Shown piece by piece: positions 6,199 to 25,847 of a stretch of DNA of 28,418 nt; positions within the stretch are counted from its first letter, which is position 1, and the number at the start of each line of letters is the position of its first letter. The position numbers were made by a program, and so were the translations under genes. The stretch is from the IMG/VR virus record IMGVR_UViG_3300020472_000129, positions 1 through 28,418 of that record; one strand, given 5' to 3'. The notes beneath the pieces were generated by a model. It did not search any database. It was not told the origin of the DNA and was given only the letters and a program-made list of their open reading frames with translations. Source of the stretch: a virus.

Positions 6199-8394
6199 AT
6201 GGCTGATGATTTTTTAGATAGTGATGAGAATACTGCACTAGAAGATTCTAATCAATCTACTGAATATGATGATCTTATAGGATATATTGAGAAAAAGTAT
6301 ACTGGTGCTAAGACTGCACGATATACAGATGAGGCACGATGGTTGCAATCCTATAGAAACTATAGAGGTATCTATGGTCCCGATGTTAAATTTACAGATG
6401 CTGAGAAGTCTCGTGTCTTTATTAAAGTAACTAAAACAAAAGTACTGGCAGCGTTTAGTCAACTCTGTGATGTACTGTTTAGCCAGAATAGATTTCCAAT
6501 TGGTGTAGAACCTACTACATTACCTGATGGTGTAGTTGAAGCTGCCCATATAGATCCTAAAAAACCTGCTGGTATGGAAGAAGAACCAGAAATGCCAGAC
6601 ATTCCATTAGTATATGGATTTAACGGTGATGGTAAAGATTTTAATGTGGGTGAAACTGCTGATACATTACTAGCCAAGCTAGGCCCACTAGAAGATAAAT
6701 TAAAGGGAATAGAAAACCTAGAAAAAGGTGTAGGTCAAACTCAATCTTCTATTACATTTGAACCAGCTATGATTGCTGCTAAGAAGATGGAGAAGAAGAT
6801 TAGAGATCAGCTAGAAGAGTCTGCTGCTACCAAGCATCTTAGGTTTTCTGCATTTGAATGTGTCCTGTTTGGTACAGGGATAATGAAGGGTCCATTTGCC
6901 TTTAACAAAGAATATCCTAATTGGGGTGATGATGGTGATTATGAGCCATTAGTTAAGACTATACCTAAAGTAGAGTATACGTCTATATGGAACTTCTACC
7001 CTGATCCTGATGCTATTAATATGGAAGACGCTATGTATGTTATTGAGCGTCACCGTATGACACGATCTCAGGTTAGGGCATTAAAGAAACGTCCATTCTT
7101 TAGAACAAAAGCAATAGAACGAGCAATAGAGTATGGTGAGAGTTATACTCGTGAGTGGTGGGAAGATGATATAGAATCAGATAGCTATGGTATAGATACT
7201 GATGGTGGTGATTCCCAAGGTGGTATAGAAAGATTTGAAGTTGTAGAGTTTTGGGGTACAGTAGATACTGAGATAGCTAAAGAAGCAGGTATCAAACTAC
7301 CTAAAGAACTAAAAAAGAAAGAAGAGATACAGATCAACTGTTGGGTATGTAATGATGAAATACTACGACTAGTAATAAATCCATTTACACCCAAGCGTAT
7401 TCCGTACTGTTCTGCACCATACGAAATTAACCCATATAGTTTCTTTGGTATTGGTTTGGCAGAAAACATGGATGATACTCAGACATTGATGAATGGCTTT
7501 ATGCGTCTTGCTGTTGATAATGCGGTATTATCTGGTAACTTACTTATAGAAGTAGATGAGTCTAACCTAGTTCCAGGCCAAGACTTGACAGTATATCCAG
7601 GAAAAATTTTCAGGAGACAAGGTGGCGCACCAGGACAAGCTATCTTTGGTACTAAGTTTCCTAATGTAAGTAGTGAAAATATGCAGTTGTTTGACAAGGC
7701 TAGGGTATTAGCTGATGAGTCAACTGGATTACCTTCTTACTCATATGGGCAAACAGGTGTTCAAGGTACTGGTAGGACCGCATCAGGTATCTCAATGCTA
7801 ATGGGAGCAGCCACCAGTTCTATTCGTACAGTTATCAAAAATATAGATGACTATATGTTACGTCCTATGGGTGAAGCACTGTTTGCATTTAATATGCAGT
7901 TTGACTTTGACTCAGAGATCAAAGGTGATTTAGAAGTTAGGGCTAGAGGTACAGAGAGCTTTATGAAGAATGAAGTTAGATCACAACGTCTAATAACATT
8001 CTTACAAATTGCAAGTAATCCTGTCCTCGCCCCATTTGCCAAGTTCCCATATATCATGAGGGAGATCGGTAGAACAATGGATCTGGATGTAGATAAGATT
8101 ACAAACAATCCAGAAGAAGCAATGCGTCAGGCAGTACTAATGCAACAGATGCAACAACAAATGCAACCAGAAGGTCCACCAGCAGGAGCTAATCCAAATG
8201 ATCCTACTGGAGGTGGAGGAGGTAATATAGGTGTAGGTACTGCTCCAGGACCAGGACAGCAAGGTTTCCCAACAGGTGGTGGAGCTAATGCTGGACAACA
8301 ACAACGTAGACCTGCACCACAACAAGGAGCCGCTAATGCACCACAACCTCGCCCGAACACTCCTCCCACTGGTCAACCAACCAGACTTCAATGA
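6199..8394 (+). CDS. Portal protein
   Basis: 731 residues, close in size to the P22 portal. It starts at the ATG immediately after the TerL stop (TAAATG), with only a weak ribosome binding site, so coupling to TerL translation is likely. The N-terminal part is acidic and helical; the middle contains the mixed alpha/beta portal core, with typical stretches such as TSIWNFYPDPDAINMEDAMY and a segment around SYSYGQTGVQGTGRTASGIS. The last 80 or so residues (from about 648) are a Gln/Pro/Gly-rich tail (MQQMQQQMQPEGPPAGAN) of low complexity. The portal is the dodecameric gate at one capsid vertex, through which DNA enters and leaves. Position directly after terL is standard. Confidence 0.93.
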   Translation: MADDFLDSDENTALEDSNQSTEYDDLIGYIEKKYTGAKTARYTDEARWLQSYRNYRGIYGPDVKFTDAEKSRVFIKVTKTKVLAAFSQLCDVLFSQNRFPIGVEPTTLPDGVVEAAHIDPKKPAGMEEEPEMPDIPLVYGFNGDGKDFNVGETADTLLAKLGPLEDKLKGIENLEKGVGQTQSSITFEPAMIAAKKMEKKIRDQLEESAATKHLRFSAFECVLFGTGIMKGPFAFNKEYPNWGDDGDYEPLVKTIPKVEYTSIWNFYPDPDAINMEDAMYVIERHRMTRSQVRALKKRPFFRTKAIERAIEYGESYTREWWEDDIESDSYGIDTDGGDSQGGIERFEVVEFWGTVDTEIAKEAGIKLPKELKKKEEIQINCWVCNDEILRLVINPFTPKRIPYCSAPYEINPYSFFGIGLAENMDDTQTLMNGFMRLAVDNAVLSGNLLIEVDESNLVPGQDLTVYPGKIFRRQGGAPGQAIFGTKFPNVSSENMQLFDKARVLADESTGLPSYSYGQTGVQGTGRTASGISMLMGAATSSIRTVIKNIDDYMLRPMGEALFAFNMQFDFDSEIKGDLEVRARGTESFMKNEVRSQRLITFLQIASNPVLAPFAKFPYIMREIGRTMDLDVDKITNNPEEAMRQAVLMQQMQQQMQPEGPPAGANPNDPTGGGGGNIGVGTAPGPGQQGFPTGGGANAGQQQRRPAPQQGAANAPQPRPNTPPTGQPTRLQ

Positions 8395-8563
8395 TTTATT
8401 TCAGGAGTATATAGACAGTAAGATTAATGATACAATTAGAGAGTTTGAGCAAGGAGAAAGTGAAGTGCAGATGTGGAAAGCTCAAGGTAAATTGCATATG
8501 TTAAGAAAGATAAGAGATATGCAGATTGAAGTTAAAACAGCAGCAGATAGAAAGTATCCGTAA
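8336..8563 (+). CDS. Small conserved-type protein nested in the portal 3' end, unknown function
   Basis: 75 residues from the ATG at 8336. This start is preferred to an earlier in-frame ATG (8276) because a strong AAGGAG lies 6 bases upstream of it. The gene overlaps the portal by 59 bases in another frame. The protein is mostly helical and charged: FNDLFQEYIDSKINDTIREF, then EQGESEVQMWKAQGKLHMLR. Small helical proteins of this type after the portal occur in other phages, where they have no settled function. It might assist portal or scaffold assembly; this is inference from position. Confidence 0.75.
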   Translation: MHHNLARTLLPLVNQPDFNDLFQEYIDSKINDTIREFEQGESEVQMWKAQGKLHMLRKIRDMQIEVKTAADRKYP

Positions 8564-8565
8564 TT

Positions 8566-11226
8566 ATGGACCCTGTTTTAGAACATCATTATAATAATAT
8601 TAAAGAAGGTAAAACAAGACAAGATAAAGATGGATATATTAATACTGTTGTTACAATACAGGTTGATAAAATAAAAAAATTAAATAACGGTAAACCTACC
8701 TTAATACCAACAGTGTATAATGGTAAAATAGTATCTGAAAAAGAAGCTATAAAAAAAGCAATAGATAGTGGTAAAAAATGGACTTCAGCAGATACGCACA
8801 AACAATTAAGAGAGTATGATAAAAAATTACATAAACAGATGTCTCCAGAATTAGCAAAAGGCACATTTAACAAGGGCGGTACAACTATGAAAAACGATCC
8901 ACCAGTAGGTTCAACACCATCAGAAGTAGCAGACGATATACCTGCAATGATCTCTGAGGGAGAATTTGTAATACCAGCAGATGTCGTAAGATACGTTGGG
9001 CTAGATAAAATACGAGCAATGATGCAAGAGGCTAAACATGGTCTAGCTTGTATGGAGGATGAAGGACTTATAGTAGACGTAGATGAGGATGGTAGACCTC
9101 AAAAAGATCAGAAAGAAAAATCTGACGATAAAGTAGCAATAATAGAAACAGTACAAATAGAAAAGGTAGATCCTATGATGACTCAAATGGCAGAGGGTGG
9201 TATGACTGATAAAGACAGTCCAGTTAGTTCCCCCATACTTAATCCAGAGAATAAACCAGTAATGGCTGAAGGTGGTATGGTTATAGGACCAGACGGAAGT
9301 CTTAGAATGGCTATGCAAGAAGGTGGTATGCCTATGCAGATGGAAGATATGATGATGGAAGAGATGCCATCTGAAGAACCTGAAATGGCTATGCCCCCTG
9401 AGTTAGCTGATGAGATGGCTCCTCAAGAAGCTGAACCAATGCCAGAAGCACCTATGATGAATGCTCCTGTAGCCCAAGAGTTTAATGGAAAACAACATCT
9501 AATGGCTTACCTACAAGAAGATGAGATCAAAGCCCTACAAGAAGCAGGTAGAGGTTTAGATGAAAACGGTGAGCAAATGCTAAGTCCAGAAGGTATACCA
9601 GTGTTTACAGAAGGTGAAGCAACTGATGATGCGGATGCAGCAGCAGCAGAAGCAGCAGATGCTGCAGGACCAGGTGTTGGTGGAAATCCAAATGATCAAT
9701 CGGATGACACAGGTCCAGCAGGTCAAGATGCAGATGTAGGTGACCCAGGAACTGACTCAGAAAATCAAGCTGAAGAATTTAAAGAACTATCTAAAGAAGT
9801 TAAAGAAGAACTAAGCCCAGAGAAAAAAGATAAAACTTATGTAGCTGGTGTAGGGTTTATTGATAAGTATATTGAACAACGTAATAGCAGACCTAACCCA
9901 CTACAAGGTAAACCTGCCTATGCTGTAGCTACTGCTGCACAAGGTGGACTAATGAGAACTCCTATGTATCTTGATGAGGGTGGTTTTGTTCCAAATATAG
10001 ATAAAGATGGAGAGATAAATGAAGCATCTTCTCAAGAAGATCCAATTCCTAGTGTTGCATCTACTCCATCAGCAAGTCCTGTTGCTTCAGAAGCTACTGT
10101 TGAGTCAGAGGCTCCTACTGAGCCACAAGCTCCTATAGGTTTAATGCAACCTGACGGAACTATAACAGGTGAAGGTATGTATGACACAGTTCAAAATTCA
10201 CGAAATTCTTTAAGTCAAATAGAAGGAATTAATCAACCTACACTTGACTATTTATCTAATAATTTCGATGTAGCAAGTAGCGTAATAGGTGATGGTGACA
10301 TAAGTAATCTTGATGGTGAAAAAGTTAATGCAGATGCTTTAAAACATTTTAATGAGTTTGGTAAAAATGAAGATAGAGTAGGTGATGGTTTGTATCAAGC
10401 TCAAGAAAGAACACCAGAAATGTTTTTAGAAGATGGTAATCCAAACCAAACAATAGAAATTAGAAATATTGCTAAAATATTAGATAAACAACCTGATATT
10501 GGAGATGATTCTTTAGAATATCTTTTTCAAAATACTGATGTATTTAAAGATGCACAAGGCAGAGTAGCTAGTGAAGAAGGTACAACATATGACGATGTAG
10601 CTAAACAACACTATAATTTATATGGAAAAGTAGAAGGAGATAGACGAGGAACAGAAGGTCTTGAGTCTTTCTTTAGTAGACCTGATCTAGGAGAAGATAC
10701 ACTATCTACAATGCCTATACAGGATACTATGGTAGATACAGATGAAATAGGTAATGTAGCATATTCTTCTAGTACGTTTGATGAATCTGGTGATGTTCAA
10801 AATGCTGGAGATGAAGGTCGAGGAGTTCCTAAAGGAGGTTATGATGCCTCTGCTGGAAGACCACAACCTGACCCTGATCTAGGACTTAAAAATTCTTTAC
10901 AAAGTAAACCTGAAGGAGGTACAGGATTTTTTACCAGAGAAACTTTACAGGATTACAAAGATCAATTAAGTAGAGCAAATATGGGTAATTTAGATCCTAT
11001 AGATTTTGATAGCCAATTTGTTCATAAAGGAGGTAATACTTACGACTTTAAATCAGGAGCTACTCTTGCAGGATATCTAGGAGGTTTCCGTGATGCACAA
11101 GGAAATCAAGTTAGTATAGATAAAGCTGTATATCAAAAAGGAGCTAGAAAAGGTCAACCACTAACTCAAGCAGATGTAATAAGAGTAGGACGAAATAGGC
11201 TCAGTAGTATAGACGAGTCTAGTTAA
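8566..11226 (+). CDS. Large acidic mosaic structural protein
   Basis: 886 residues, 3 bases after the preceding stop. Residues 1-95 form a separate unit (PTLIPTVYNGKIVSEKEAIK, then YDKKLHKQMS) similar to a short module in other phage virion proteins. Residues 110-165 hold DPPVGSTPSEVADDIPAMIS and EGEFVIPADVVRYVGL, a segment common in marine phage proteins that often stands near the N-terminus, so the first unit looks like a fusion. The middle is Met/Glu/Gly-rich with EGGM words and acidic linkers. Two repeats of the type YL-N-DV-...-HYN-FGK-E follow (about 560-603 and 650-695); the same repeat occurs in the last gene of the window. The position between portal and scaffold points to a head or internal virion protein. 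Exact role unknown. Confidence 0.85.
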   Translation: MDPVLEHHYNNIKEGKTRQDKDGYINTVVTIQVDKIKKLNNGKPTLIPTVYNGKIVSEKEAIKKAIDSGKKWTSADTHKQLREYDKKLHKQMSPELAKGTFNKGGTTMKNDPPVGSTPSEVADDIPAMISEGEFVIPADVVRYVGLDKIRAMMQEAKHGLACMEDEGLIVDVDEDGRPQKDQKEKSDDKVAIIETVQIEKVDPMMTQMAEGGMTDKDSPVSSPILNPENKPVMAEGGMVIGPDGSLRMAMQEGGMPMQMEDMMMEEMPSEEPEMAMPPELADEMAPQEAEPMPEAPMMNAPVAQEFNGKQHLMAYLQEDEIKALQEAGRGLDENGEQMLSPEGIPVFTEGEATDDADAAAAEAADAAGPGVGGNPNDQSDDTGPAGQDADVGDPGTDSENQAEEFKELSKEVKEELSPEKKDKTYVAGVGFIDKYIEQRNSRPNPLQGKPAYAVATAAQGGLMRTPMYLDEGGFVPNIDKDGEINEASSQEDPIPSVASTPSASPVASEATVESEAPTEPQAPIGLMQPDGTITGEGMYDTVQNSRNSLSQIEGINQPTLDYLSNNFDVASSVIGDGDISNLDGEKVNADALKHFNEFGKNEDRVGDGLYQAQERTPEMFLEDGNPNQTIEIRNIAKILDKQPDIGDDSLEYLFQNTDVFKDAQGRVASEEGTTYDDVAKQHYNLYGKVEGDRRGTEGLESFFSRPDLGEDTLSTMPIQDTMVDTDEIGNVAYSSSTFDESGDVQNAGDEGRGVPKGGYDASAGRPQPDPDLGLKNSLQSKPEGGTGFFTRETLQDYKDQLSRANMGNLDPIDFDSQFVHKGGNTYDFKSGATLAGYLGGFRDAQGNQVSIDKAVYQKGARKGQPLTQADVIRVGRNRLSSIDESS

Positions 11227-13987: not shown

Positions 13988-14704
13988 ATGGCTACAACAT
14001 TTTTAACATTAGTTAATGATACATTAAGACGTTTGAATGAAGTTGAGTTAAGTGCAACTGATTTCCCTAATGCTTCTGGTTTTCGCGCTCAAGTTAAAGA
14101 TGCAGTAAATGCTTCCTTACAAGAAATATCCCAAAAAGAATTTGAGTTTCCTTTTAATTTTACATCTGCTTCTCTAACATTAGTTGCAGGTACAGCAGAG
14201 TATAGTCTTGCTACTGATTTTAAAATAGCAGACTGGGATAGTTTCCGTATTGCTAAAGATGACGATATTAATGCTGATGCTCGATTATTAAAACTAATAA
14301 ACTATGACACCTTTCTAAGTAGATTTTATGAAAGAGATGGTAACGCAACTTCAGCAGAATATACAACCCCTGCATATATATATAGAACATTATCTAATAA
14401 GGCTGCTTTTACACCTATACCTGATGTTGCATATACAGTAAATTATAACTACTTTGCCTACTCTTCTGATTTATCTAGTGCTACAGATACTATGTCTGTT
14501 CCTGATCAATTTAAACACGTTGTTATAGATGGTGCATTGTATCACACTTATATGTTTAGAGATAACTCACAACAGGCAGCTATAACCAAACAGAAGTTTG
14601 AAGAGGGTATAGATCGTATGCGTACATTATTAATTAACAGATTTACTGATGTAAGAGATACGAGAGTAGGGAGACTTCTAGCAGTTCCACATGGTAATCT
14701 ATAA
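13988..14704 (+). CDS. Head-to-tail adaptor / head-completion protein
   Basis: 238 residues. The N-terminal segment FLTLVNDTLRRLNEVELSAT and the helix AQVKDAVNASLQEISQKEFE, the pattern of a helical bundle plus a beta part (LVAGTAEYSLATDFKIADWD), and a C-terminal helix (QQAAITKQKFEEGIDRMRTL) resemble adaptor proteins of short-tailed phages (the role of P22 gp4 or T7 gp11), which bind the portal and start the tail. It is the first gene after the capsid terminator. The start is the ATG at 13988, with a weak GGGCGAG upstream. The stop overlaps the next start (TAATG). Confidence 0.75.
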   Translation: MATTFLTLVNDTLRRLNEVELSATDFPNASGFRAQVKDAVNASLQEISQKEFEFPFNFTSASLTLVAGTAEYSLATDFKIADWDSFRIAKDDDINADARLLKLINYDTFLSRFYERDGNATSAEYTTPAYIYRTLSNKAAFTPIPDVAYTVNYNYFAYSSDLSSATDTMSVPDQFKHVVIDGALYHTYMFRDNSQQAAITKQKFEEGIDRMRTLLINRFTDVRDTRVGRLLAVPHGNL

Positions 14705-16800
14705 TGGCTGATGCGTTAAAAGACGTAACGGTATTATCTCGTGGTGGTTTATTTACAAACGAGGATGCTTTAGCTCTTGCTGGATCTAATCCAGGAGCAG
14801 CAGTTCGTATGTTAAATATGGAAATATCTCAATTCGGTGGTTATAGAAGAATTAGCGGATATGCAGATTATGACTCAACCTATGGTACTGTTTCTGGTTC
14901 AGGTAACGTAACAGGTTTATGGATACTAGAAGGTGTACCATATGCAGTCAGAAGAAATTTAAAAGATAATACAGGATCACTAGGCACTAATCCTTTTGTT
15001 GTTACTAATGGTAGTCCTACAATAACAGTAACACACAGTAGTCACGGTTTATCCGTAGGAGATAGAGTAACATATGCAGGATCATCTGCTGTTGGAGGTA
15101 TAACACCAAACTCAGTAGAAATGGTTATTGCTTCTGTAGTTGATGTTAATAGTTATACAGTTGCATTTACATCTAATGCTAGTTCTGGTGCTACTGGTGG
15201 AGGTAGCTCAGTAACATTTACAGCAAACAACGGAACTCAGACACTAGGATCTAATCCTTTCAGTGTATCAAATACAAGTGCTACTATAACAGTTGCACAT
15301 ACTTCACATGGATTAGTTGTAGGAAACTATGTAACTTTTTCTGGAAGTGATGCAATAGGTGGTCTTACTCCTAACTCTGTAGAGATGCAAGTTGTTACAG
15401 TTCCTGATGCAAATAGTTATACCGTTACCTTTACATCAGCAGCTACTTCTACGGTTAGTGGTGGAGGTGGGTCTTCAGTAACAGCAAACTATAGTAAGTT
15501 TTACAGTGTATGGAAGTATACATCTACAGGATGGACAACGGTAGTATCAAACATATCATCTGTCAGTGTAGATAAATTAAGACATAATATGAACTCCTTT
15601 ACTGGTACTGAGGCAGTTATTATATGTGATGGTGCTAACAGTCCCAGTAAGTTAAGTGGATCAACATTTTCCGTTCATCCAACAGGAGGAGATTACAATC
15701 CTACAGGTGCTTCTTTTACTACTGATTTTAAAAATCATCAGTTCTATGCTGGATTTCCTACGACAGGATTAGGTCCAAATATACTACTATTTAGTGAGCC
15801 TAACGATGATGATGCATTTACTAATAGCGGTGGATCAGGTAACATTAATGTTGGATTTAATATTACTGGACTAGCAAAGTTTAGAGATGCACTATATATA
15901 TTTGGTAAAACTAAAATAAAAAAATTAACAGGATCAGTAAAAGCAGATTACATTATTTCAGAAGTAACAGACAATATCGGATGTATTGCTACTGACAGTA
16001 TTATTGAGTTAGGTGGTGACGTATTATTTCTAGCATCAGATGGTATACGTCCTATTCAGGGTACTGCTAGAATTGGTGACGTTGAGCTTGAAACTGTTTC
16101 TAAACCTGTACAGCAACTATTACAGGATTTACCTAATACACATAATCTAAGTAATATGACATCTGTTGTTATTAGAAATAAATCGCAGTTTAGATACTTC
16201 TTTCCTTCTACTAGTACAGCAGCAGCAGATACAGCAGGTATAATAGGTGGACTTAGATTTGCAGATAGAAGAGTAGGTTGGGAGTTTGGTGAGTTACTAG
16301 GTATAAGAGCATTCGTAGCTACTAGTGGTTTGATAAACGATGTTGAGGTTGTTCTTCATGGTGATTTAAATGGAGAGATATATAGACAAGAATCTGGTAG
16401 TACATTTGACAGTTCTGATGTTGTAGCTGTTTACGCAACACCTTTCTTATACTTTGACTCAACAGAAAAACGAAAGATATTTCAACATATAACATTATTT
16501 ACCAGACCAGAAGGATCTTCTACAATAAACTTAGGTATAGCATATGATTGGGATGATCCAAATGTACCTGATCCTACGACATATTCTTTAACAACAGCAG
16601 GATCATTATCAAGGTATACAACAACAGGTAGTACCTATGATGCTACATTTACATACGATGGATCTACTAGTCCTGTACTAGAGTCCAATATACAAGGGTC
16701 GGGTAGGGCGATCTCATTAGCTATAACATCAACAGGAACTCAGTCTCCCTATAGTATAGCAGGTTTCTCAGTAACATATCAGGATGCAGGATACAGATAA
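14704..16800 (+). CDS. Tail hub/nozzle-like structural protein with two Ig-like repeats
   Basis: 698 residues, coupled to the adaptor by a 1-base overlap. The beginning (VTVLSRGGLFTNEDALALAG, then AAVRMLNMEISQFGGYRRIS) and the body with long beta-rich stretches (FYAGFPTTGLGPNILLFSEP, GDVLFLASDGIRPIQGT) fit the tube or nozzle protein that follows the adaptor in short-tailed phages. Two tandem copies of a unit of about 88 residues lie at about 93-176 and 181-263 (LGTNPFVVTNGSPTITVTHS against LGSNPFSVSNTSATITVAHT), each with SHGL-VG--VT--GS and VD-NSYTV-FTS. These look like inserted Ig-like domains, probably exposed on the outside of the tail. P22 gp10 and T7 gp12 are role models, not proven homologues. 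Confidence 0.75.
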   Translation: MADALKDVTVLSRGGLFTNEDALALAGSNPGAAVRMLNMEISQFGGYRRISGYADYDSTYGTVSGSGNVTGLWILEGVPYAVRRNLKDNTGSLGTNPFVVTNGSPTITVTHSSHGLSVGDRVTYAGSSAVGGITPNSVEMVIASVVDVNSYTVAFTSNASSGATGGGSSVTFTANNGTQTLGSNPFSVSNTSATITVAHTSHGLVVGNYVTFSGSDAIGGLTPNSVEMQVVTVPDANSYTVTFTSAATSTVSGGGGSSVTANYSKFYSVWKYTSTGWTTVVSNISSVSVDKLRHNMNSFTGTEAVIICDGANSPSKLSGSTFSVHPTGGDYNPTGASFTTDFKNHQFYAGFPTTGLGPNILLFSEPNDDDAFTNSGGSGNINVGFNITGLAKFRDALYIFGKTKIKKLTGSVKADYIISEVTDNIGCIATDSIIELGGDVLFLASDGIRPIQGTARIGDVELETVSKPVQQLLQDLPNTHNLSNMTSVVIRNKSQFRYFFPSTSTAAADTAGIIGGLRFADRRVGWEFGELLGIRAFVATSGLINDVEVVLHGDLNGEIYRQESGSTFDSSDVVAVYATPFLYFDSTEKRKIFQHITLFTRPEGSSTINLGIAYDWDDPNVPDPTTYSLTTAGSLSRYTTTGSTYDATFTYDGSTSPVLESNIQGSGRAISLAITSTGTQSPYSIAGFSVTYQDAGYR

Positions 16801-19550
16801 TGGCAGGATATACCAGACAATCTTCAGCACAAATAGTTAGCGGTGAGGTTATATCAGCAGCACCACTTAATGCAGAACTTAACCAAGTTTTAGCAGCCTT
16901 TAACGAATCTACAGGTCACTCACATGATGGTACGGCAGCAGAAGGTCCACCAATAGATAGAGTAGCAGATGCTGATCAACGTAATATGGTGTTAGTAGAC
17001 ACTTCTAATAATCATATTGAATTTTATACTGAAGTAAGTTCTTCTGCCACACAACAATTACGAATACAAGATGGGGCTATTGTTCCTATAACAGACAATG
17101 ATATAGACTTAGGTACAGCATCATTAGAATTTAAAGATATGTTTATAGATGGTACTGCACATATAGACACTCTTGACGTAGATGTAAATGCTACTGTAGC
17201 TGGTACATTAGGTGTTACTGGTGCGCTTACTGGAACAAACATAACTGCTTCTACTGCATTTTTACCCGATGCTTCTGATGGTGCTGCACTAGGTACATCA
17301 TCATTAGAATTTAGTGATTTATTTCTTGCAGATGGTGCTGTAATTAATTTGGGAGATGACCAAGATGTTACTCTTACCCATGTTGCTGATACTGGAGTAC
17401 TACTTAATTCTACTAATAAGATACAGTTTAATGATGCTTCACAATTCATTCACGGCTCTAGTGCTACTGTTCTTTCTCTTGGAGCTACAGATGAGATTGA
17501 CCTTACAGCTACTGCAATAGATATAAATGGTACAGCAGATATTAGTGGTAATACCGCTGTAGGTGGAACACTTACTTCTACTGGTAAGATTACTGCTGAT
17601 GCTGGTATTGATATAGATAACTTTAACATTGATGGTACAACTATAGCATTATCTTCTGGTGATATGACACTAGATGGTGCAGCAGACATTATACTTGATG
17701 CAGGTGGTGATGAGGTTATATTTAAAGATGGTAGTACTAACGTAGGTCATGTTAGTATGGATAGTGATAATCTAACAATCAAATCACTTGTAAGCGATAA
17801 GGACATGATCTTCCAAGGTAATGATGGTGGATCAGGTATTACTGCATTAACATTAGATATGTCAGGTGCAGGTGCAGCTACATTTAATTCTTCCGTTACT
17901 GCTACTGCACTTAGCGTAGGTGATGGTAATATAACTAACGTAGGTGATATTGCTCTTGATTCTATATCTGCTGATGATACAGATATTAATGTAGCAGTAA
18001 CAGATAACTCAGCTACTGCATTTACAATCAAACAAGGATCAGATGCTTATCTTATTGTTGATACAGCTAATAGTAGTGAGTCTGTATCTATCGGTACTGG
18101 TATATCTGGTACTGCTGTAACAATAGGACATGGTACATCTGAAGTAACTATAGGCGATAACTTAACCGTTTCAGGTAACTTAACAGTTAGCGGAACACAA
18201 ACAGTTGTAGATACTGTTACGATGAATGCTCAAAATGCTGTAGTGTTTGAAGGTGCTACTGCTGATGCACATGAAACTACACTATCAATTGTTGATCCTA
18301 CAGCAGATCATACACAATACCTAATTAATCAGGGTGGATATATTCCTGTATTAGATACTGTAACTACTACCGCAATTAGTGCTACTCCTGCTGAATTAAA
18401 CATAATGGATGGAGGAACTAGTGCAACTAGTACTACAATAGCAGATGCAGATAGAGTAGTTGTTAATGATGCTGGAACAATGAAGCAGGTAGCAGTTACA
18501 GATTTGGCTGCATACTTTGATGATGAAATAACTGCAATGCCTAACCTGGTTTCCACTGGAGCATTAGATAGTGGCAGTATTACTTCTGGATTTGGTACAA
18601 TAGATACTGGATCTTCTGCAATAACAACAACAGGTGCGGTAAACTTTGGTTCGTTAAATGATGGTTCAATAGGAGTAACAGCATTTGTAGATGAAGATAA
18701 TATGTCTTCTAATAGTGCTACATTAGTTCCTACACAACAGTCTGTTAAAGCATATGTAGATACCGTTGCAGGTACAGCTAATAATGTAACTGGATTAACT
18801 GCATCTGGTGCAGAACTAAATGTACTTGATGGTGCAAGTGCAGGAACTATAGTAAATAGTAAAGGTGTTATATATAGCTCTGGTGGTAAAGTAAATGCTA
18901 CTAGCTTACAAATAGCTGGTACAGATCTTTCTGCTACGGCTGCTGAATTTAATTTACTGGATGGTGGGTCTACTGTAGGTACTACTGCTGTTGCATCTGG
19001 TGATGGTATACTTACCAATGACGATGGTACGATGAGGCAAACTAGCCTAGATACATTTGATACATATCTCTCTGCATCAACTAAAACACTTACAAACAAA
19101 ACATTAACTGCACCTAAGATAGTTGATGGTGGTTTTATTGCTGATGCAAACGGTAATGAAGGTATAGTATTACAAACTGCCAGTTCTGCCGTAAATGCTT
19201 TAGAAGTAACTAACGCAGCATCAGGTGGATCTGTAGTTGTCGGAGCTATGGGAGATGATTCTAACATCGACATAGACATTACACCAAAAGGAACTGGTGA
19301 AGTAAACATAGCAGCAGGTAACTTAAACTATGCAGGTACAGCCATTACATCTACTGGTGCAGAGATAAATAAACTAGATGGATACAATGGATCTGTAACT
19401 GAATTAAACTACCTTAAATCATTATACGATACTAATGTTACCAGTACAGAATATGATTACTTGAGCGGTGTATCAAGTAACATACAAACACAATTAAATT
19501 CTAGAGCATCGACAGGTAAGGCTATTGCAATGGCAATGGTATTTGGCTAA
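16800..19550 (+). CDS. Tail fibre protein
   Basis: 916 residues, overlapping the preceding stop by one base. The N-terminus carries the fibre-attachment pattern GEVISAAPLNAELNQVLAAF followed by TGHSHDGT. The shaft is repeated, beta-rich, Asp/Thr/Gly-rich sequence with LGTASLEFKDMF and LGTSSLEFSDLF near residues 100 and 160. Further on there are four copies of an AELN-LDG motif (about 18386, 18810, 18940 and 19357), including TASGAELNVLDG and TAAEFNLLDG. The C-terminus is QTQLNSRASTGKAIAMAMVF, an ending I associate with marine phage and prophage fibres. Such proteins form trimeric fibres that contact the host surface. No S74-type self-cleaving chaperone domain is seen. Confidence 0.85.
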   Translation: MAGYTRQSSAQIVSGEVISAAPLNAELNQVLAAFNESTGHSHDGTAAEGPPIDRVADADQRNMVLVDTSNNHIEFYTEVSSSATQQLRIQDGAIVPITDNDIDLGTASLEFKDMFIDGTAHIDTLDVDVNATVAGTLGVTGALTGTNITASTAFLPDASDGAALGTSSLEFSDLFLADGAVINLGDDQDVTLTHVADTGVLLNSTNKIQFNDASQFIHGSSATVLSLGATDEIDLTATAIDINGTADISGNTAVGGTLTSTGKITADAGIDIDNFNIDGTTIALSSGDMTLDGAADIILDAGGDEVIFKDGSTNVGHVSMDSDNLTIKSLVSDKDMIFQGNDGGSGITALTLDMSGAGAATFNSSVTATALSVGDGNITNVGDIALDSISADDTDINVAVTDNSATAFTIKQGSDAYLIVDTANSSESVSIGTGISGTAVTIGHGTSEVTIGDNLTVSGNLTVSGTQTVVDTVTMNAQNAVVFEGATADAHETTLSIVDPTADHTQYLINQGGYIPVLDTVTTTAISATPAELNIMDGGTSATSTTIADADRVVVNDAGTMKQVAVTDLAAYFDDEITAMPNLVSTGALDSGSITSGFGTIDTGSSAITTTGAVNFGSLNDGSIGVTAFVDEDNMSSNSATLVPTQQSVKAYVDTVAGTANNVTGLTASGAELNVLDGASAGTIVNSKGVIYSSGGKVNATSLQIAGTDLSATAAEFNLLDGGSTVGTTAVASGDGILTNDDGTMRQTSLDTFDTYLSASTKTLTNKTLTAPKIVDGGFIADANGNEGIVLQTASSAVNALEVTNAASGGSVVVGAMGDDSNIDIDITPKGTGEVNIAAGNLNYAGTAITSTGAEINKLDGYNGSVTELNYLKSLYDTNVTSTEYDYLSGVSSNIQTQLNSRASTGKAIAMAMVFG

Positions 19551-19563
19551 AAGGAGATAAAAT

Positions 19564-19938
19564 ATGTCAGCACCTAATATTGTCAATGTAGCAACCATTA
19601 CTGCAAAGACAGACACATTACTACTAACAGGTACATCAGCAGTACAACTGTTAGAAAATCCTGCATCATCTGGTAAGGTTATGAAAGTTAATAGCTTAGT
19701 TGTAGCTAACGTAGATGGTACTAATGCAGCATCAATAACTGTAGGAATATATCCTCAAGATGATATTGGTGGTACAGCAGTGCTATTAGCATCTACTATA
19801 TCCGTACCAGCAGATGCCTCCCTAATTGTCATAGACAAAAACATGGGATTATATTTAGAGGAAGATACATCAATCGGTGTTACTGCTAGTGCAGCTAATG
19901 ACTTAGCCTGTACTATTACATATGAAGAACTCTCATAA
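19564..19938 (+). CDS. Small beta-rich tail-associated protein, unknown function
   Basis: 124 residues with an excellent AAGGAGATAAAAT before the ATG. It opens MSAPNIVNVATITAKTDTLL and continues as alternating beta strands with small residues (VMKVNSLVVANVDGTNAASI, then LASTISVPADASLIVIDKNM), ending in an ITYEELS strand. It looks like one beta-sandwich domain. It sits between the fibre and the propeller genes, so a tail-tip or fibre-connecting part is likely. The strong ribosome binding site suggests high copy number. No family can be named with confidence. Confidence 0.75.
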   Translation: MSAPNIVNVATITAKTDTLLLTGTSAVQLLENPASSGKVMKVNSLVVANVDGTNAASITVGIYPQDDIGGTAVLLASTISVPADASLIVIDKNMGLYLEEDTSIGVTASAANDLACTITYEELS

Positions 19939-19947
19939 GGATTTTAA

Positions 19948-21168
19948 ATGCCCAATAGAGGTAAATTTATAGGTAGTCAGGATAACCTATACGTTCCTGA
20001 TGCTCCAACTATAGGTACAGCTACTGCTGGTGACGCTCAAGTATCTGTAGCATTTACTGCACCTTCTGATGTGGGTAATGATGATATTACTGCTTATGGC
20101 GCATCAGCTACAGATGGCACTAATGTTATTGGTGCAACTGGTTCATCTTCTCCAATATCTATAACTGGTCTTACAAATGGCACAAGCTATACTGCACAAG
20201 TATGGGCTATCAACGATTATGGTAATGGCCCACTGTCTGCTGCTACCGCTAGTTTTAGTCCTGCTAGACCTTCAATTGGATTGTTTGCAGCAGGTTATAG
20301 TCAAACTGCTAGTGCAATATTAAAAAGTATAGATAAAATTATAATTGAAACTACTGGCAATGCCACAGACTTTGGTGATCTTACTGTTGTTAGGTATGAT
20401 CTTGCTGGTCTTGGTTCTTCAACAAGAGGAGTATTTGCTGCTGGTAATCTTGATTATACCAATGCTACAAATGTTATGGATTATGTTACTTTTGCTAGTT
20501 TAGGAAATGCTACTGATTTTGGTGACAGAACAATTTCATATTATAATTCAACAGGACTTAGTAATTCTACTAGAGGAATATTTGCTGGAGGACATATTGG
20601 AAACACTTTATACGATGTTATTGACTATATAACCATTGCTAGTACTGGAGATGCAACAGATTTTGGTAATTTGTCGGTAGCTAGGTTTGGTATTGGTGGG
20701 GCAGGTTCTACAACAAGAGGTATATTTTACAGTGGTGGTATTACTAACGCTTCTACATCTGGTAATACTATTGATTACGTTACTATTGCTAGTACTGGTA
20801 ATGCAACAGATTTTGGCGATTCAACATCTGTAAATAGATTAGGAGGTGCTGTATCTAGTGCAACACGTTGTTGTAAACTAGGTGGATATATTGTTTCATC
20901 ATACTCAAATATTATTGAATATGTCACTACAGCTAGTACAGGTAATGGCACAGACTTTGGAGATTTGTCAGTAGCTAAGTATATTGCTAACTCAAATGCA
21001 TCTAGTAAAATACGTGGTGTTGTTGCTGGTGGAGTAGATGGTTCAAGAGTAAATACAATCGAATATATAACTATTGCTAGTGCTGGTAACGGTACTGATT
21101 TTGGCGATTGCTCTGGTCTAATTAGTCAGCAAGGTGGTGCATCAAACGCACATGGAGGTATAGCATAA
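19948..21168 (+). CDS. FN3 domain plus one six-bladed kelch-like propeller, tail receptor-binding candidate
   Basis: 406 residues. Residues 18-107 form a fibronectin type III domain (PDAPTIGTATAGDAQVSVAF, SPISITGLTNGTSYTAQVWA). Residues 111-406 are six repeats of about 49 residues with the pattern RG-[VI]-F-x-GG ... [DE]Y-[VI]-T-[IF]-A-S-x-GNATDFGDL-x-x-x-R. The first blade starts after PARPSI and the last ends SNAHGGIA. The GG after a hydrophobic strand, an aromatic-Tyr/Asp strand and a later F-x-x-L then Arg are the spacing of kelch blades, so one closed six-bladed propeller is the natural reading. With an FN3 connector it probably sits at the tail tip or fibre and binds a host sugar or protein. 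Function is inferred. Its stop overlaps the next start. Confidence 0.8.
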   Translation: MPNRGKFIGSQDNLYVPDAPTIGTATAGDAQVSVAFTAPSDVGNDDITAYGASATDGTNVIGATGSSSPISITGLTNGTSYTAQVWAINDYGNGPLSAATASFSPARPSIGLFAAGYSQTASAILKSIDKIIIETTGNATDFGDLTVVRYDLAGLGSSTRGVFAAGNLDYTNATNVMDYVTFASLGNATDFGDRTISYYNSTGLSNSTRGIFAGGHIGNTLYDVIDYITIASTGDATDFGNLSVARFGIGGAGSTTRGIFYSGGITNASTSGNTIDYVTIASTGNATDFGDSTSVNRLGGAVSSATRCCKLGGYIVSSYSNIIEYVTTASTGNGTDFGDLSVAKYIANSNASSKIRGVVAGGVDGSRVNTIEYITIASAGNGTDFGDCSGLISQQGGASNAHGGIA

Positions 21169-23003
21169 TGGCTCCTTCATTCTCAGGCGTATGGAATTTA
21201 TCTACATTCTATCAATATACCAGTGCTTTACCTAGCCCACCTGTATTAGGTATTCTTGCTGGTGGTTTTAATAGTGGCTATGCTAATCGTGCAGACTATC
21301 AAACTATAAATTTTAATGATGGTAATGGTACTGATCAAGGTGATTTGACTTTAGCTAGATATGATATTGCTGGATTTGGTTCAACAACAAGGGCTGTATT
21401 TGCAGGTGGATATGGGTCTAGCGTTACAAATGTTGTTGATTATGTAGAACACGCTGCATTAGGTAATGGCACAGATTTTGGTGATCAGACTGTTGCAGGA
21501 TCTGGATCAGGAGCGCATAGCAGTAATACTAGAGGTCTTGTAGCTAGTTTTACCAATGCTTCTGGCGTGAATACAGAAAATAAAACAATAGATTATTATA
21601 CTATCGCTAGTACAGGTAATGCTACTGACTTTGGAGACTTATCTTCTAATAGAAACTCCACGCAAGGTGGAGGTGGTACTACAAGGGCTATATTTTTTGC
21701 TGGTAATGCTTGGGGAGTTGGCCCTACAAATGTAATTGATTATGTGACTATCGCTACCACTGGTGACGCAACAGATTTCGGCGATGCTTCAAATAGCATA
21801 TACACTCATCATGCTAACGTAGATAGTTCTACAAGATCTATATTTTTCGGTGGATATACAGGTAGTCATATAGATGTTATTGAGTATGTAACCATAGCCA
21901 GTGCAGGTAACGCTACAGATTTTGGTAACTTAGATCAGGCTCAAAGTGCTAGAAGTGCTGGTTTAAGTAATGGTACTATAGGAATACTTGCTGGTGATGT
22001 AGGTGGTACTAGTGCAAATAACCAAAAAATAACGATAGCTTCTACTGGAAATGCTACCGATTTTGGAACACTGCAAACATATGGTGGTACATATATGGCA
22101 TATCAAGGTAGTGCATCACCTCACAATCCAGCAGTACAAACAGTTTCTTTACCAGCAGCTTTAGGATTATTTGCTGGTGGTGATGGTCAATCTGCAATAG
22201 AGTTTATAGATATAGCTACAACAGGCAGTGTAGGTATGTTTGGTGATTTAACTGCAAAAAGATATGGAATGCAAGGTGGTGCATCCAGTGCAACAAGAGG
22301 TGTGTTTGGTGGTGGTATCACAGTTGACATCATGGAGTATGTTACGTTTTCTACTAAAGGCAAAGCAACAGACTTTGGTAATTTAAGTGGAAACAGATAT
22401 GTAGTTGCAGGAAGTTCAAATAGTACAAGGGGTTTATTTTCAGGTGGTACTGATGGAAGCAGTGTACAGGATATAGTAGAATATATTACTATTGCTTCTG
22501 CTGGTAATGTTACAGATTTTGGTAATCTTTCAGCTGCTTCTCAATATGGTTCAGCATTAGCAAGTACAACTAGAATGGTTACTAATATAGGTGAAGCTGG
22601 TGGATCGGCTGTTGATACAATGGATTATTTTACTATTGCTTCAGCAGGTAACGCTACAGATTTTGGTAATTTAACAGCTACAACAGTCCAGAATGCATCT
22701 GCATCTAGTAGTACCAGAGGTGTATTCGCAGGGGGAACAAGAGGTGGGGGAGGTAATATAATTGACTACATTACCATTGCCAGTGCAGGAAATGCTACAG
22801 ATTTTGGCGACCTTACGTCAGCAAGAATTAGAATAACAGGTGTATCTTCTAGCACTAGAGGAGTATTTGGCAGCAGAACAGGTAATGCAGTTGTTGATTA
22901 TGTTACCATTGCCAGTGCTGGTAATGCTACTGATTGGGGTGATTTAAGTGTTAATTTTGATTATAAGGCATCAGCATCTAACTCACACGGAGGTATAGCA
23001 TAA
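21168..23003 (+). CDS. Tandem double kelch-like propeller protein (12 blades)
   Basis: 611 residues. A 27-residue head (SFSGVWNLSTFYQYTSALPS) is followed by 12 repeats of about 49 residues with the same GNATDFGDL core as the preceding gene. After repeat 6 comes a break (SPHNPAVQTVSLPAALGLF) instead of the usual STRG junction, and the last repeat ends SNSHGGIA, so the protein reads as two six-bladed propellers in series. Blades 7 and 8 have position-specific wording (GMFGDLTAKR; FSTKGKATDFG) that is matched by blades 7 and 8 of the next gene, which shows descent by duplication of the whole two-propeller unit. Likely a tail or fibre receptor-binding protein. Starts at ATG overlapping the previous stop; no strong ribosome binding site, so coupled translation is likely. 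Confidence 0.8.
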   Translation: MAPSFSGVWNLSTFYQYTSALPSPPVLGILAGGFNSGYANRADYQTINFNDGNGTDQGDLTLARYDIAGFGSTTRAVFAGGYGSSVTNVVDYVEHAALGNGTDFGDQTVAGSGSGAHSSNTRGLVASFTNASGVNTENKTIDYYTIASTGNATDFGDLSSNRNSTQGGGGTTRAIFFAGNAWGVGPTNVIDYVTIATTGDATDFGDASNSIYTHHANVDSSTRSIFFGGYTGSHIDVIEYVTIASAGNATDFGNLDQAQSARSAGLSNGTIGILAGDVGGTSANNQKITIASTGNATDFGTLQTYGGTYMAYQGSASPHNPAVQTVSLPAALGLFAGGDGQSAIEFIDIATTGSVGMFGDLTAKRYGMQGGASSATRGVFGGGITVDIMEYVTFSTKGKATDFGNLSGNRYVVAGSSNSTRGLFSGGTDGSSVQDIVEYITIASAGNVTDFGNLSAASQYGSALASTTRMVTNIGEAGGSAVDTMDYFTIASAGNATDFGNLTATTVQNASASSSTRGVFAGGTRGGGGNIIDYITIASAGNATDFGDLTSARIRITGVSSSTRGVFGSRTGNAVVDYVTIASAGNATDWGDLSVNFDYKASASNSHGGIA

Positions 23004-24931
23004 TGACGCAAAGATACCTTGGTGGGATAATAACAGCAAACCCGGTAGAACCATCTAGCAATCTATCTACTGCATCTGCATCTGGTATGTGGACATTGCA
23101 GGAAGCATTGAGTTTCTATAGAGCAGGTGATTGGCCTGATGCTACTAATACACCTAGTGTTGGCCTTATTAAAGGAGGTTATGCAGCTTCAGCACCTACA
23201 GATACAGTAAATAAAATTATTCCAGAAACAGCAGGTAACGCTACTGATTTTGGTAATCTATCAGCCAGTAATTATTCTCTTGGTGCGTTATCTTCAGACA
23301 CAAGATCAGTTGCTGCTGGTGGATATTATAATAATTCTGCCTATACTAACACAATAGAATATTTTACTTTTGCTAGTGCTGGTAATGCAACAGATTTTGG
23401 TGATGCATCTGCTGTAATATTTAATACAACTGGAATTTCAAATAATGTAAGAGGTGTATTTGCATTAGGAAATGCAGGAGGTTCTAATGTTAATACTCTT
23501 GAATATATAACAATACCCTCAACAGGTAATTCTATAGATTTTGGTGATGCAACAGAAGCTAAAGACGCTGCTGCTTCTGTTGGAAGTTCTACTAGAGGTG
23601 TATTTGCTGGAAGAGCTACATCTTATACTAACGTAATAGAGTATATTACTATAGCAAGTTCTAGTAATGCGACAGACTTTGGTGATCTTACTACTTCTAG
23701 AGGTTATATGCATGGGGGAGCAAGTAGTAGTACTAGAGGCGTATTTGGGCCCGGATTAGGTGGAGGTGGAAGTACTTATTTTAATACACTAGATTACATA
23801 ACTATTGCGTCTACTGGAAACGCTACAGATTTCGGAGATGCATTAGCTGCTACATATGGCACAAGTGGTATGTCAAATAGTACAAGAGGAATATTTTCTG
23901 GTGGTCAAGATTCAGGTGGTAGGCTTAATGTAATACAACAGATTACAATAGCTACTACAGGAAACGCCACAGATTTTGGCGATTTACTTTCAGTTACTTC
24001 TTATAATGCATCTACTTGCTCTGGTAATCCAGCAGTACAAAACGAAACTGGATTTCCCCCTGCTGCTATAGGATTGTTTGCTGGTAGCACTAATGCAGGT
24101 CAGACTACTATTTTGTATGTTAATATAGCAACAGATGGTGAAGGAGCAATGTTTGGTGACGCTGCTGTTGCAAGAGGAAGTACATCAGGTGGTAGCGCAA
24201 GTTCAACTAGAGCAGTGTTTGCAGGTGGTGGTAGCAGTGGAATAAACAATATAGATTATGTTGAGTTTAGTACAAAAGGGAAAGGTACAGATTTCGGTGA
24301 TTTAAATAACGCTGTAACTGGTGGAGGGCAAGTAAGCAGTTCTACCAGAGGTATTCATGCTGGTGGTTTGGTTAGTAGTAGAATTAATGTTATTGATTAT
24401 TTTACTATAGCCAATGCAGGTAACGCTACTGATTTTGGGGATCTTACGGCTGTTAAAAATAGTATAGGTAGTGCAGGAGGAACAACAAGAGGTTTATTCT
24501 TTGGTGGTTACACTAGTGGTTACTTAAATGTAATTGAGTATATAACTATAGCCAATACAGGAAATGCAACAGATTTTGGAGATCTTTCAAATGCTGTAAG
24601 TAATATTAATGGTGTAGCTTCAAATACTAGAGCATTATTTGCAGGTGGATATAGTCAAGTTTCTGATTCATTAATAAATGTAGTTGAATATGCAACTATT
24701 GCCAGTACAGGTAACGCAACAGATTTTGGAGATTTATCTGTTGGTTCAAATCGTAACGCTGGAGTTACAGATAAAACAACTGCATTATTTCATGCAAGTC
24801 AAGGTAATGCGGGATATCCTAGTGTAGATAAATTTACTATTGCAAGTACGGGTAATGCTGCTGATTGGGGTGATCTTGTAGGAACGCAATACAATTACAG
24901 TTCTACCTCTAACTCACATGGTGGACTTTAA
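23003..24931 (+). CDS. Tandem double kelch-like propeller protein (12 blades), paralogue of the previous gene
   Basis: 642 residues. The head (about 1-53) contains ASGMWTLQEALSFYRAGDWP, related to the shorter SGVWNLSTFYQ head of the previous protein. It is followed by 12 repeats with the GNATDFGDL core. The break after repeat 6 (CSGNPAVQNETGFPPAAIGL) lies where the previous protein has its own, and the final repeat ends SNSHGGL. Blade 1 (KIIPETAGNATDFG) is closest to blade 1 of the FN3-propeller protein (KIIIETTGNATDFG). Two six-bladed propellers are inferred. It overlaps the previous stop by one base and is the last gene before promoter P4. Probably part of the adsorption apparatus. Confidence 0.8.
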   Translation: MTQRYLGGIITANPVEPSSNLSTASASGMWTLQEALSFYRAGDWPDATNTPSVGLIKGGYAASAPTDTVNKIIPETAGNATDFGNLSASNYSLGALSSDTRSVAAGGYYNNSAYTNTIEYFTFASAGNATDFGDASAVIFNTTGISNNVRGVFALGNAGGSNVNTLEYITIPSTGNSIDFGDATEAKDAAASVGSSTRGVFAGRATSYTNVIEYITIASSSNATDFGDLTTSRGYMHGGASSSTRGVFGPGLGGGGSTYFNTLDYITIASTGNATDFGDALAATYGTSGMSNSTRGIFSGGQDSGGRLNVIQQITIATTGNATDFGDLLSVTSYNASTCSGNPAVQNETGFPPAAIGLFAGSTNAGQTTILYVNIATDGEGAMFGDAAVARGSTSGGSASSTRAVFAGGGSSGINNIDYVEFSTKGKGTDFGDLNNAVTGGGQVSSSTRGIHAGGLVSSRINVIDYFTIANAGNATDFGDLTAVKNSIGSAGGTTRGLFFGGYTSGYLNVIEYITIANTGNATDFGDLSNAVSNINGVASNTRALFAGGYSQVSDSLINVVEYATIASTGNATDFGDLSVGSNRNAGVTDKTTALFHASQGNAGYPSVDKFTIASTGNAADWGDLVGTQYNYSSTSNSHGGL

Positions 24932-24938
24932 ATAAAAC

Positions 24939-24967
24939 TTGACAAACGCTTAAAAATATGGTATATA
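24939..24967 (+). promoter_or_regulatory. Sigma-70 promoter P4, late block
   Basis: TTGACA (24939-24944), 17 bases, TATATA (24962-24967). The flanks AATAAAAC and AAAC are those of P1. It begins a few bases after the last propeller gene and serves the gene at 25017, whose AAAGGAGATAAT ribosome binding site is strong. No terminator is seen between the tail operon and this promoter. Confidence 0.8.
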
Positions 24968-25016
24968 TATATTCCCATTCAGGGGGATACATATACTAAT
25001 AAAGGAGATAATATAT

Positions 25017-25847
25017 ATGACAGATACAAACTTAGTAGTACATGAATTAAAGGTAAACTTACCTGCTGATGTAAAGCCAGAATACAATACAATGTTAGCT
25101 AATATACAGGAAAAGATGCCTCAAGTAGCACAAGCTACTTCTAATTTTCATAAGTCACACTCACAGTTCATGGGTGTTACATTAGACGTAACTGCAATAA
25201 CACCTATTCGATCTGTAAAGCACACACTAGCTGAAATAGATAGAACCAGAGGTGCATTGCAAGAAGCATACATTGGTATGAAGAAGAAAGAAAATGAACT
25301 AAAGAAGAAAGAACGTGACCTAGAATCATGTGAAGATGATTTAGATCGTGAGTTACTAGAGATAGAGATACTAGAAATAGAAGGACACTTAGCAGGTACT
25401 AAGAATAGTGTACAGGGTGCAATCAGAAAGATGTCATTCTTTACCAACCAGTATGATAACCTTATGAAACACATAGGTAAAGAAGAACTAACTGAAGCTG
25501 ATTACGAGTTAGAAGAAGCACGATATCACATTATGACCTGTATGAAACAGGCATTAAATAGTGCTAGACCTAGAGGTGGTACAATTGATGAGGGTAACAT
25601 GATCTACCTATTTGATTTAGGTATCAATGCAGCCCAAGCACAAGCAGAAGTATTTGCGTACCTACAATGGGAAAATAATATTATTAGTGAAGGTAAAGCC
25701 CCAACTCATGCTAATACAGTAGAATGGTTAGAGGCTTGTGCAGATAAGTGGGCTAGTTGTCCTTCTGATTTTGCAAACAGTCGTGGTTTTGATGTATATG
25801 ATCCATTGTCATTAACTAATGTACCACAATTAGAAGCAGCCGAATAG
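25017..25847 (+). CDS. Helical protein of unknown function, probable virion or late protein
   Basis: 276 residues, with AAAGGAG ahead of the ATG. After an N-terminal beta-like segment (NLVVHELKVNLPADV), residues about 75-125 form a strongly charged coiled coil (GMKKKENELKKKERDLESCE, LEIEILEIEGHLAG). The C-terminal half is helical with Cys and Trp (TVEWLEACADKWASCPSDFA). No enzymatic motif or signal peptide is seen. It opens a unit with its own promoter, and the two small gaps that follow (14 bases each) indicate an operon with the next genes. Internal virion or tail-tip assembly protein are candidate roles. Not recognised. Confidence 0.75.
   Translation: MTDTNLVVHELKVNLPADVKPEYNTMLANIQEKMPQVAQATSNFHKSHSQFMGVTLDVTAITPIRSVKHTLAEIDRTRGALQEAYIGMKKKENELKKKERDLESCEDDLDRELLEIEILEIEGHLAGTKNSVQGAIRKMSFFTNQYDNLMKHIGKEELTEADYELEEARYHIMTCMKQALNSARPRGGTIDEGNMIYLFDLGINAAQAQAEVFAYLQWENNIISEGKAPTHANTVEWLEACADKWASCPSDFANSRGFDVYDPLSLTNVPQLEAAE

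Follow-up and report, generated by a model that had tools for sequence, protein, structure and literature searches.

The proteins examined here most closely resemble kelch beta-propellers, as found in the animal proteins KEAP1, KLHL12 and KLHL3 and in the designed protein SAKe6. The likeness extends to six four-stranded blades, a double glycine after strand B, a Tyr in strand C, closure by a C-terminal A strand, and BC and DA loop diversity on the binding side. The classical kelch consensus contains a spaced aromatic pair, Tyr ... Trp. In KEAP1, the C-terminal A strand completes blade I to close the ring, and substrates bind to the face built from the BC and DA loops (PMC4668279). In KLHL20 these loops likewise make the substrate-binding face. 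Unlike the KEAP1/KLHL proteins and SAKe6, with which they share only 11–17% sequence identity, the proteins of this study usually have Phe in place of the kelch Trp, occur as tandem propellers in phage gene arrays, and are barely detected by Pfam kelch models.

That phages encode kelch propellers is already known: BFVD contains phage proteins annotated as kelch. A Foldseek search of BFVD returned phage kelch-like matches at E 3e-19 to 1e-9, some annotated as kelch or as virion structural proteins. Such proteins occur in Burkholderia phage BcepSaruman, Pseudomonas phages PS119XW, PhiPA3 and Noxifer, and Synechococcus phage S-SKS1, and are only about 10–20% identical to the propellers described here. 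The host-recognition protein of S. aureus phage phi11 is a phage receptor-binding protein that likewise includes a beta-propeller (PMC4901313). That propeller reportedly has five blades and sits in a single protein; unlike those of our locus, it is not part of a gene array. Marine phages also have host-recognition metaviromic islands, in which hypervariable recognition genes lie at or beside the tail fibre gene. The domains listed for these islands are carbohydrate-binding, C1q-like and lectin-like, with no kelch array among the annotations given and no mention of a propeller (PMC3909814).

The window analysed here is a whole IMG/VR record, a 28,418-bp (28.4-kb) fragment from the genome of an uncultured virus of bacteria. 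Its terminase, portal, major head protein and tail genes follow the same order as in HMO-2011 and the CRP roseophages, and its major head protein and portal are 62–63% and 63–64% identical, respectively, to the closest of HMO-2011, CRP-345 and CRP-1. This gene order and these identities mark the window as the structural module of a marine podovirus of the HMO-2011 type. Where HMO-2011 has small genes mostly annotated as tail fibre, the window has an array of three kelch genes (g1, g2 and g3); we found no kelch blades in the tail loci of the cultured phages HMO-2011, CRP-345 and CRP-1. The gene ahead of the array, g0, occupies the position of HMO-2011 gp42, a ‘putative structural protein’. At least one flanking gene of the window is also found at 103 of 112 related loci, most commonly g0 and the segment encoding an fn3 domain at the N-terminus of g1, the latter with matches in 89 of the 112. 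The locus is laid out as follows.

16800..19550, + strand: upstream tail-fibre gene, 916 aa, counterpart of HMO-2011 gp43, with a shared MAGYTRQSS N-terminus
19564..19938, + strand: g0, 124-aa protein ahead of the array, at the HMO-2011 gp42 position; matches in 87 of 112 related loci
19948..21168, + strand: g1, 406 aa, fn3 domain plus one predicted six-bladed kelch propeller
20005..20247, + strand: fn3 domain of g1, aa 20–100 (Pfam fn3, E 8e-6)
20263..21150, + strand: propeller 1, g1 aa 106–401, six blades of four strands in the AlphaFold2 model, with VIA matches to kelch structures
21154..21158, + strand: GGAGG in the HGG codons of the g1 cap, probable Shine-Dalgarno site of g2 (sequence and codon statistics)
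21168..23003, + strand: g2, 611 aa, GVWNL segment (~25 residues) plus two predicted propellers
21246..22118, + strand: predicted propeller 2, g2 aa 27–317; blade segments 88–98% identical to related locus L002
22119..22160, + strand: g2 linker between propellers, NPAVQTVSLPAA; high DNA similarity to L002 stops at 22139
22161..22988, + strand: predicted propeller 3, g2 aa 332–607; 44–52% identical to its L002 counterpart
22989..22993, + strand: GGAGG in the HGG codons of the g2 cap, probable Shine-Dalgarno site of g3 (TAATG overlap)
23003..24931, + strand: g3, 642 aa, N-terminal segment with SGMWTL motif plus two predicted propellers
23159..24025, + strand: predicted propeller 4, g3 aa 53–341; 79–98% identity to L002 per blade segment
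24026..24067, + strand: g3 linker between propellers, NPAVQNETGFPPAA; similarity to L001 and L002 stops at 24040
24068..24916, + strand: predicted propeller 5, g3 aa 356–638; cap codons GGTGGA

Three other features lie around the array. In the protein encoded at 14704–16800, Pfam detects an endosialidase beta-barrel domain (E 3e-11), and a PHROG amidase family is matched as well (E 2e-45). A 326-aa frame runs antisense to the tail-fibre gene at 18329–19309 (- strand) and probably arises merely from the repeats in the fibre sequence. The interval that separates the array from the following gene (24932–25017) contains a sigma-70-like promoter, good as judged by eye (TTGACA, 17 bp, TATATA), and an AAAGGAG site; related locus L004 shows the start of a similar stretch.

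Counting the blade-end motif [D/M][F/Q/W]G[D/N/T] gives 6 repeats in g1 and 12 each in g2 and g3. This count and the open reading frame (ORF) coordinates bear out a sequence-only reading of the window, which had described 6, 12 and 12 repeats in three adjacent genes. That reading also placed a linker with NPAVQ and a Pro-rich stretch only after repeat 6, and the spacing agrees: blade ends lie 44–51 residues apart except for a single 59-residue gap in g2 and another in g3, both after repeat 6 and both containing NPAVQ and a Pro-rich linker. The SNAHGG/SNSHGG caps that it assigned to all three proteins are present at their C-termini as SNAHGGIA, SNSHGGIA and SNSHGGL. The repeat period is nearer 48 than the proposed 49 residues. 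It made no mention of the fn3 domain of g1, the probable Shine-Dalgarno role of the caps, or exchange at the level of propellers.

An AlphaFold2 model of g1, built with 31 aligned relatives, has pLDDT mostly above 90 over residues 110–400 and contains 24 strands, arranged as six blades of four in a closed ring. Foldseek against the PDB placed the kelch domains of KLHL12 and KEAP1 in the lead (KLHL12: E 5e-18, TM (target) 0.89). In VIA-align the Z score was 38.4 against SAKe6BE, a designed kelch protein with six blades, and 37.4 against KEAP1 (1zgk), over 280–284 residues at 2.0–2.1 Å; its best 50 matches were kelch propellers only, and other propeller families may be overlooked by this fold search. 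Residues 109–400 of the model align with KEAP1 326–609, or nearly so. Given how KEAP1 closes, blade 1 is completed in this model by the incomplete final repeat that precedes the SNAHGG cap. The closed six-bladed propeller and the kelch resemblance proposed from sequence are both upheld by the model and its matches; the g1 model shows neither a beta-solenoid nor another blade number. An AlphaFold2 model of g3 (16 relatives) had a mean pLDDT of 35 and was discarded. Blades 1–6 of g3 match the g1 propeller in one alignment at 49% identity, and g2 aligns to g3 in two parts, at 48% and 53%; identities of 48–53% indicate that propellers 2–5 probably share the six-bladed kelch fold of g1.

The kelch signature is recognizable at the level of single residues. 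Among 1,195 near-full blades from the family, glycine occupies the two positions after hydrophobic strand B in 974 and 1,110 blades, and Tyr stands at its kelch position in 1,007. The kelch Trp position holds Phe in 1,148 blades and Trp in 17, and the aromatic spacing is longer than in the classical repeat. Pfam kelch models gave no match in the window proteins, and among the 31 relatives Kelch_1 matched one only, at E 0.036. PDB sequence searches with g2 and with a 31-member profile returned nothing useful; the link to kelch came from the fold search only.

We built a blade HMM and scanned IMG/VR and a few genome records for relatives; a blade was counted only if it extended to the FGD end. 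In IMG/VR, viral contigs yielded at least 544 stretches coding for relatives. Of the complete, distinct ORFs, 262 in all, 204 encode 6 blades, 36 encode 12 and 2 encode 18, so that 242 hold exactly 6, 12 or 18. Most of the others are either ORFs with 11, 17 or 5 blades, in which the HMM apparently missed one divergent copy, or fragments of split genes that together make up 6 or 12. Counts of 7 and 13 in a first census were mostly caps scored as partial blades and vanish once the FGD end is required. The multiple-of-six repeat count noted from sequence therefore holds beyond the window: the rule of six characterizes the whole family and is no coincidence of one locus, and the sixes in relatives, together with the split-gene totals, rule out chance for the window counts.

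The array had also been called unusually large. This is right in part, as relatives reach greater sizes: the longest adjacent run in the fetched loci, at L022, comprises seven propellers with 42 blades. The arrays at L014, L016 and L022 have another N-terminal module (MSTLKVDTI ... EPSSPSNGD ... YINGEFK) and caps that resemble SGNAS in place of SNAHGG. Relatives L111–L118 lie on contigs binned as Maricaulis, Pirellulales, Epulopiscium, Desulfobacter and a Thermoprotei archaeon, and may be prophage or mis-binned phage DNA.

Variation within the propellers is concentrated on one face. Per-position entropy over the 1,195 blades, with strand limits taken from the g1 model, averages ~3.2 bits in the DA segment and ~3.1–3.2 bits in the BC loop, versus 1.8 in the AB turn and 1.2 in the CD turn, and the BC loop changes length in about half of the blades. 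In 24 independent close pairs (median identity 74%), 38% of BC and DA sites differ versus 15% of AB and CD sites. The array thus combines a place in the tail-fibre locus with hypervariability on the presumptive binding face, the two observations that bear on a putative receptor-binding role. The most economical reading of these sequences is a putative adhesin whose scaffold is fixed and whose ligands meet a single variable face, presented in five copies. The adsorption role suggested by the sequence-only reading is well supported by the locus and by the position of variation, from which we infer that the three proteins bind a host receptor and are located in the virion.

Whole propellers appear to be the unit by which relatives differ: similarity breaks at linkers, at gene junctions or at the fn3/propeller border. 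Between g2 and L002, identity is 88–98% in the segments of blades 1–6, 66% in the linker segment and 44–52% across the second propeller, and the high-identity DNA match ends at 22139, within the linker. The L002 counterpart of g3 retains propeller 4 at 79–98% identity but reaches a stop just after NPAVQ and lacks a second propeller; the flank downstream of the array is again 91.5% identical to L002. Alignments to L001, L003 and L005 stop at 20263–20264, the fn3/propeller border; L005 has its relative of the g1 propeller ~2.2 kb further along, where the gene begins with a different N-terminus. After de-duplication, the fetched loci together give 68 similarity breaks, many of them at the outer array edge, of which 6 lie in propeller bodies versus ~51 expected (30-bp margin), and the 20 breaks strictly inside arrays include 6 in propeller bodies versus an expected 76% (p 2e-5); these tests treat loci as independent after crude de-duplication and alignment ends as true breakpoints, and the counts are not independent events because related loci share ancestry. 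Conserved junction DNA alone could draw alignment ends to junctions. We infer recombination as the cause of the breaks; rapid propeller divergence could account for some of them, but hardly for the step from 88–98% to 44–52% in g2.

The gene junctions carry a second signal. Genes g1 and g2, and likewise g2 and g3, overlap as TAATG, and the HGG codons of their caps (CAT-GGA-GGT in g1, CAC-GGA-GGT in g2) place GGAGG 9 nt before the next ATG. The g3 cap uses GGT-GGA because no gene abuts downstream. Family-wide, HGG codons spell GGAGG or GGGGG in 127 of 129 coupled genes, those followed almost directly after the stop by the start of another gene, versus 9 of 48 genes with no abutting downstream start (Fisher p 5e-28, again with related loci treated as independent); internal Gly-Gly pairs use GGAGG in about 20%. 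This codon bias indicates that the cap HGG codons probably double as the Shine-Dalgarno site of the next gene. Since uncoupled genes also conserve the HGG residues, their role is probably in the fold, with translation having co-opted the motif.

Some propeller genes are themselves split (L068, 3720–4238/4242–4808; L032, 5370–5828/5832–6374; L075, 7230–7661/7692–8273; L007, 3947–4501/4506–5840; and L087 twice, 7191–7628/7635–8204 and 8149–8694, the second case reaching the contig end). In all of these loci the cut lies in the BC loop directly after Gly-Gly, mostly in blade 3: a stop is followed within 0–30 nt by an ATG that opens the remainder of the propeller. Genes with both halves complete total 6 or 12 blades, and most split genes have a GGAGG/GGGGG-like site in the Gly-Gly codons at the cut. 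Assembly error aside, these interrupted genes suggest propellers made of two chains, or else gene decay. We give an even chance to a cassette system in which the propeller is the exchange unit and a Gly-Gly Shine-Dalgarno site starts either the next cassette or the second chain of a split propeller. If this holds, phages could add, drop, swap or split propellers while keeping translation and fold.

Multiples of six might instead stem from unequal crossing-over and have no structural meaning, as in a solenoid. The blades are ~65–70% similar at the DNA level (blastn), which makes slippage possible, but this explanation is exceedingly improbable in view of the 242 of 262 ORFs with 6, 12 or 18 blades, the totals of 6 or 12 kept by complete split genes, and the high-confidence closed ring of the g1 model. 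We also consider it very unlikely that the propellers are enzymes, galactose-oxidase-like or glycan-degrading depolymerases, and not pure binders. One BFVD match is a phage protein annotated as galactose oxidase, and the amidase and endosialidase matches of the nearby 14704–16800 gene mean that tail enzymes exist in the same module. However, the ligand-side BC and DA loops are the least conserved part of the propeller, the opposite of an active site; the entropy profile suggests no conserved set of metal or acid-base residues on the loop face, and the closest folds, KEAP1/KLHL and designed kelch, are non-enzymatic.

A passive role would place recognition elsewhere, for example in the 916-aa tail fibre, and leave the propellers as virion decoration or as spacers in a branched fibre. 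The array genes closely follow the tail-fibre gene, and the face opposite the variable one (AB and CD turns, STGNATDFGD) is strongly conserved and could mediate stacking. Spacers, however, need neither a face that is hypervariable even among close relatives nor the apparent exchange of whole propellers, and we regard this role as unlikely.

With good confidence, we read the three genes as encoding virion adhesins of a marine podovirus of the HMO-2011 type, which form a multivalent and modular array whose propellers appear to be exchanged as wholes. The five propellers would present their hypervariable BC/DA face to host-surface ligands. Each gene would form a self-contained cassette of N-terminal segment, one to three propellers and cap, with the short Trp-containing N-terminal segment or the fn3 domain probably docking to the tail. 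The cap would end the chain, and its Gly-Gly codons would supply the site at which ribosomes bind to translate the next cassette. Propellers could then be gained, lost or swapped between phages with fold and translation intact, whole-propeller exchange being tolerated because the linker, the cap/Shine-Dalgarno/start and the fn3 borders are conserved. The outcome would be a multivalent receptor-binding array that is quickly re-tooled.

Searches of the literature, taking in few subscription journals and preprints, found no description of six-fold tandem arrays of adhesin cassettes or of phage kelch adhesins. Within the literature covered, and as far as we searched, the family itself and its six-fold tandem arrays in the HMO-2011-type adhesin slot are new, as are the boundary-biased exchange and the dual-use cap. 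A tblastn search of 50,697 named phage records with g2, g3 and two divergent relatives returned, within propellers, only weak matches to S-SKS1, although the BLAST low-complexity filter may conceal some relatives; CRP-143 gave a 40-residue match outside the propeller. Nearly all PHROG matches of the family lack an assigned function.

Marine phages seem to carry an abundant class of adhesins that has gone unnamed, with at least 544 stretches in IMG/VR and almost none in the 50,697 named records. The rule of sixes is a reliable guide for annotating and modelling such proteins, and the family offers hundreds of natural six-bladed kelch domains in which the core is constant while one face varies. 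Together, boundary-biased exchange and the probable Shine-Dalgarno role of the cap provide a testable account of how phages may re-tool host recognition.
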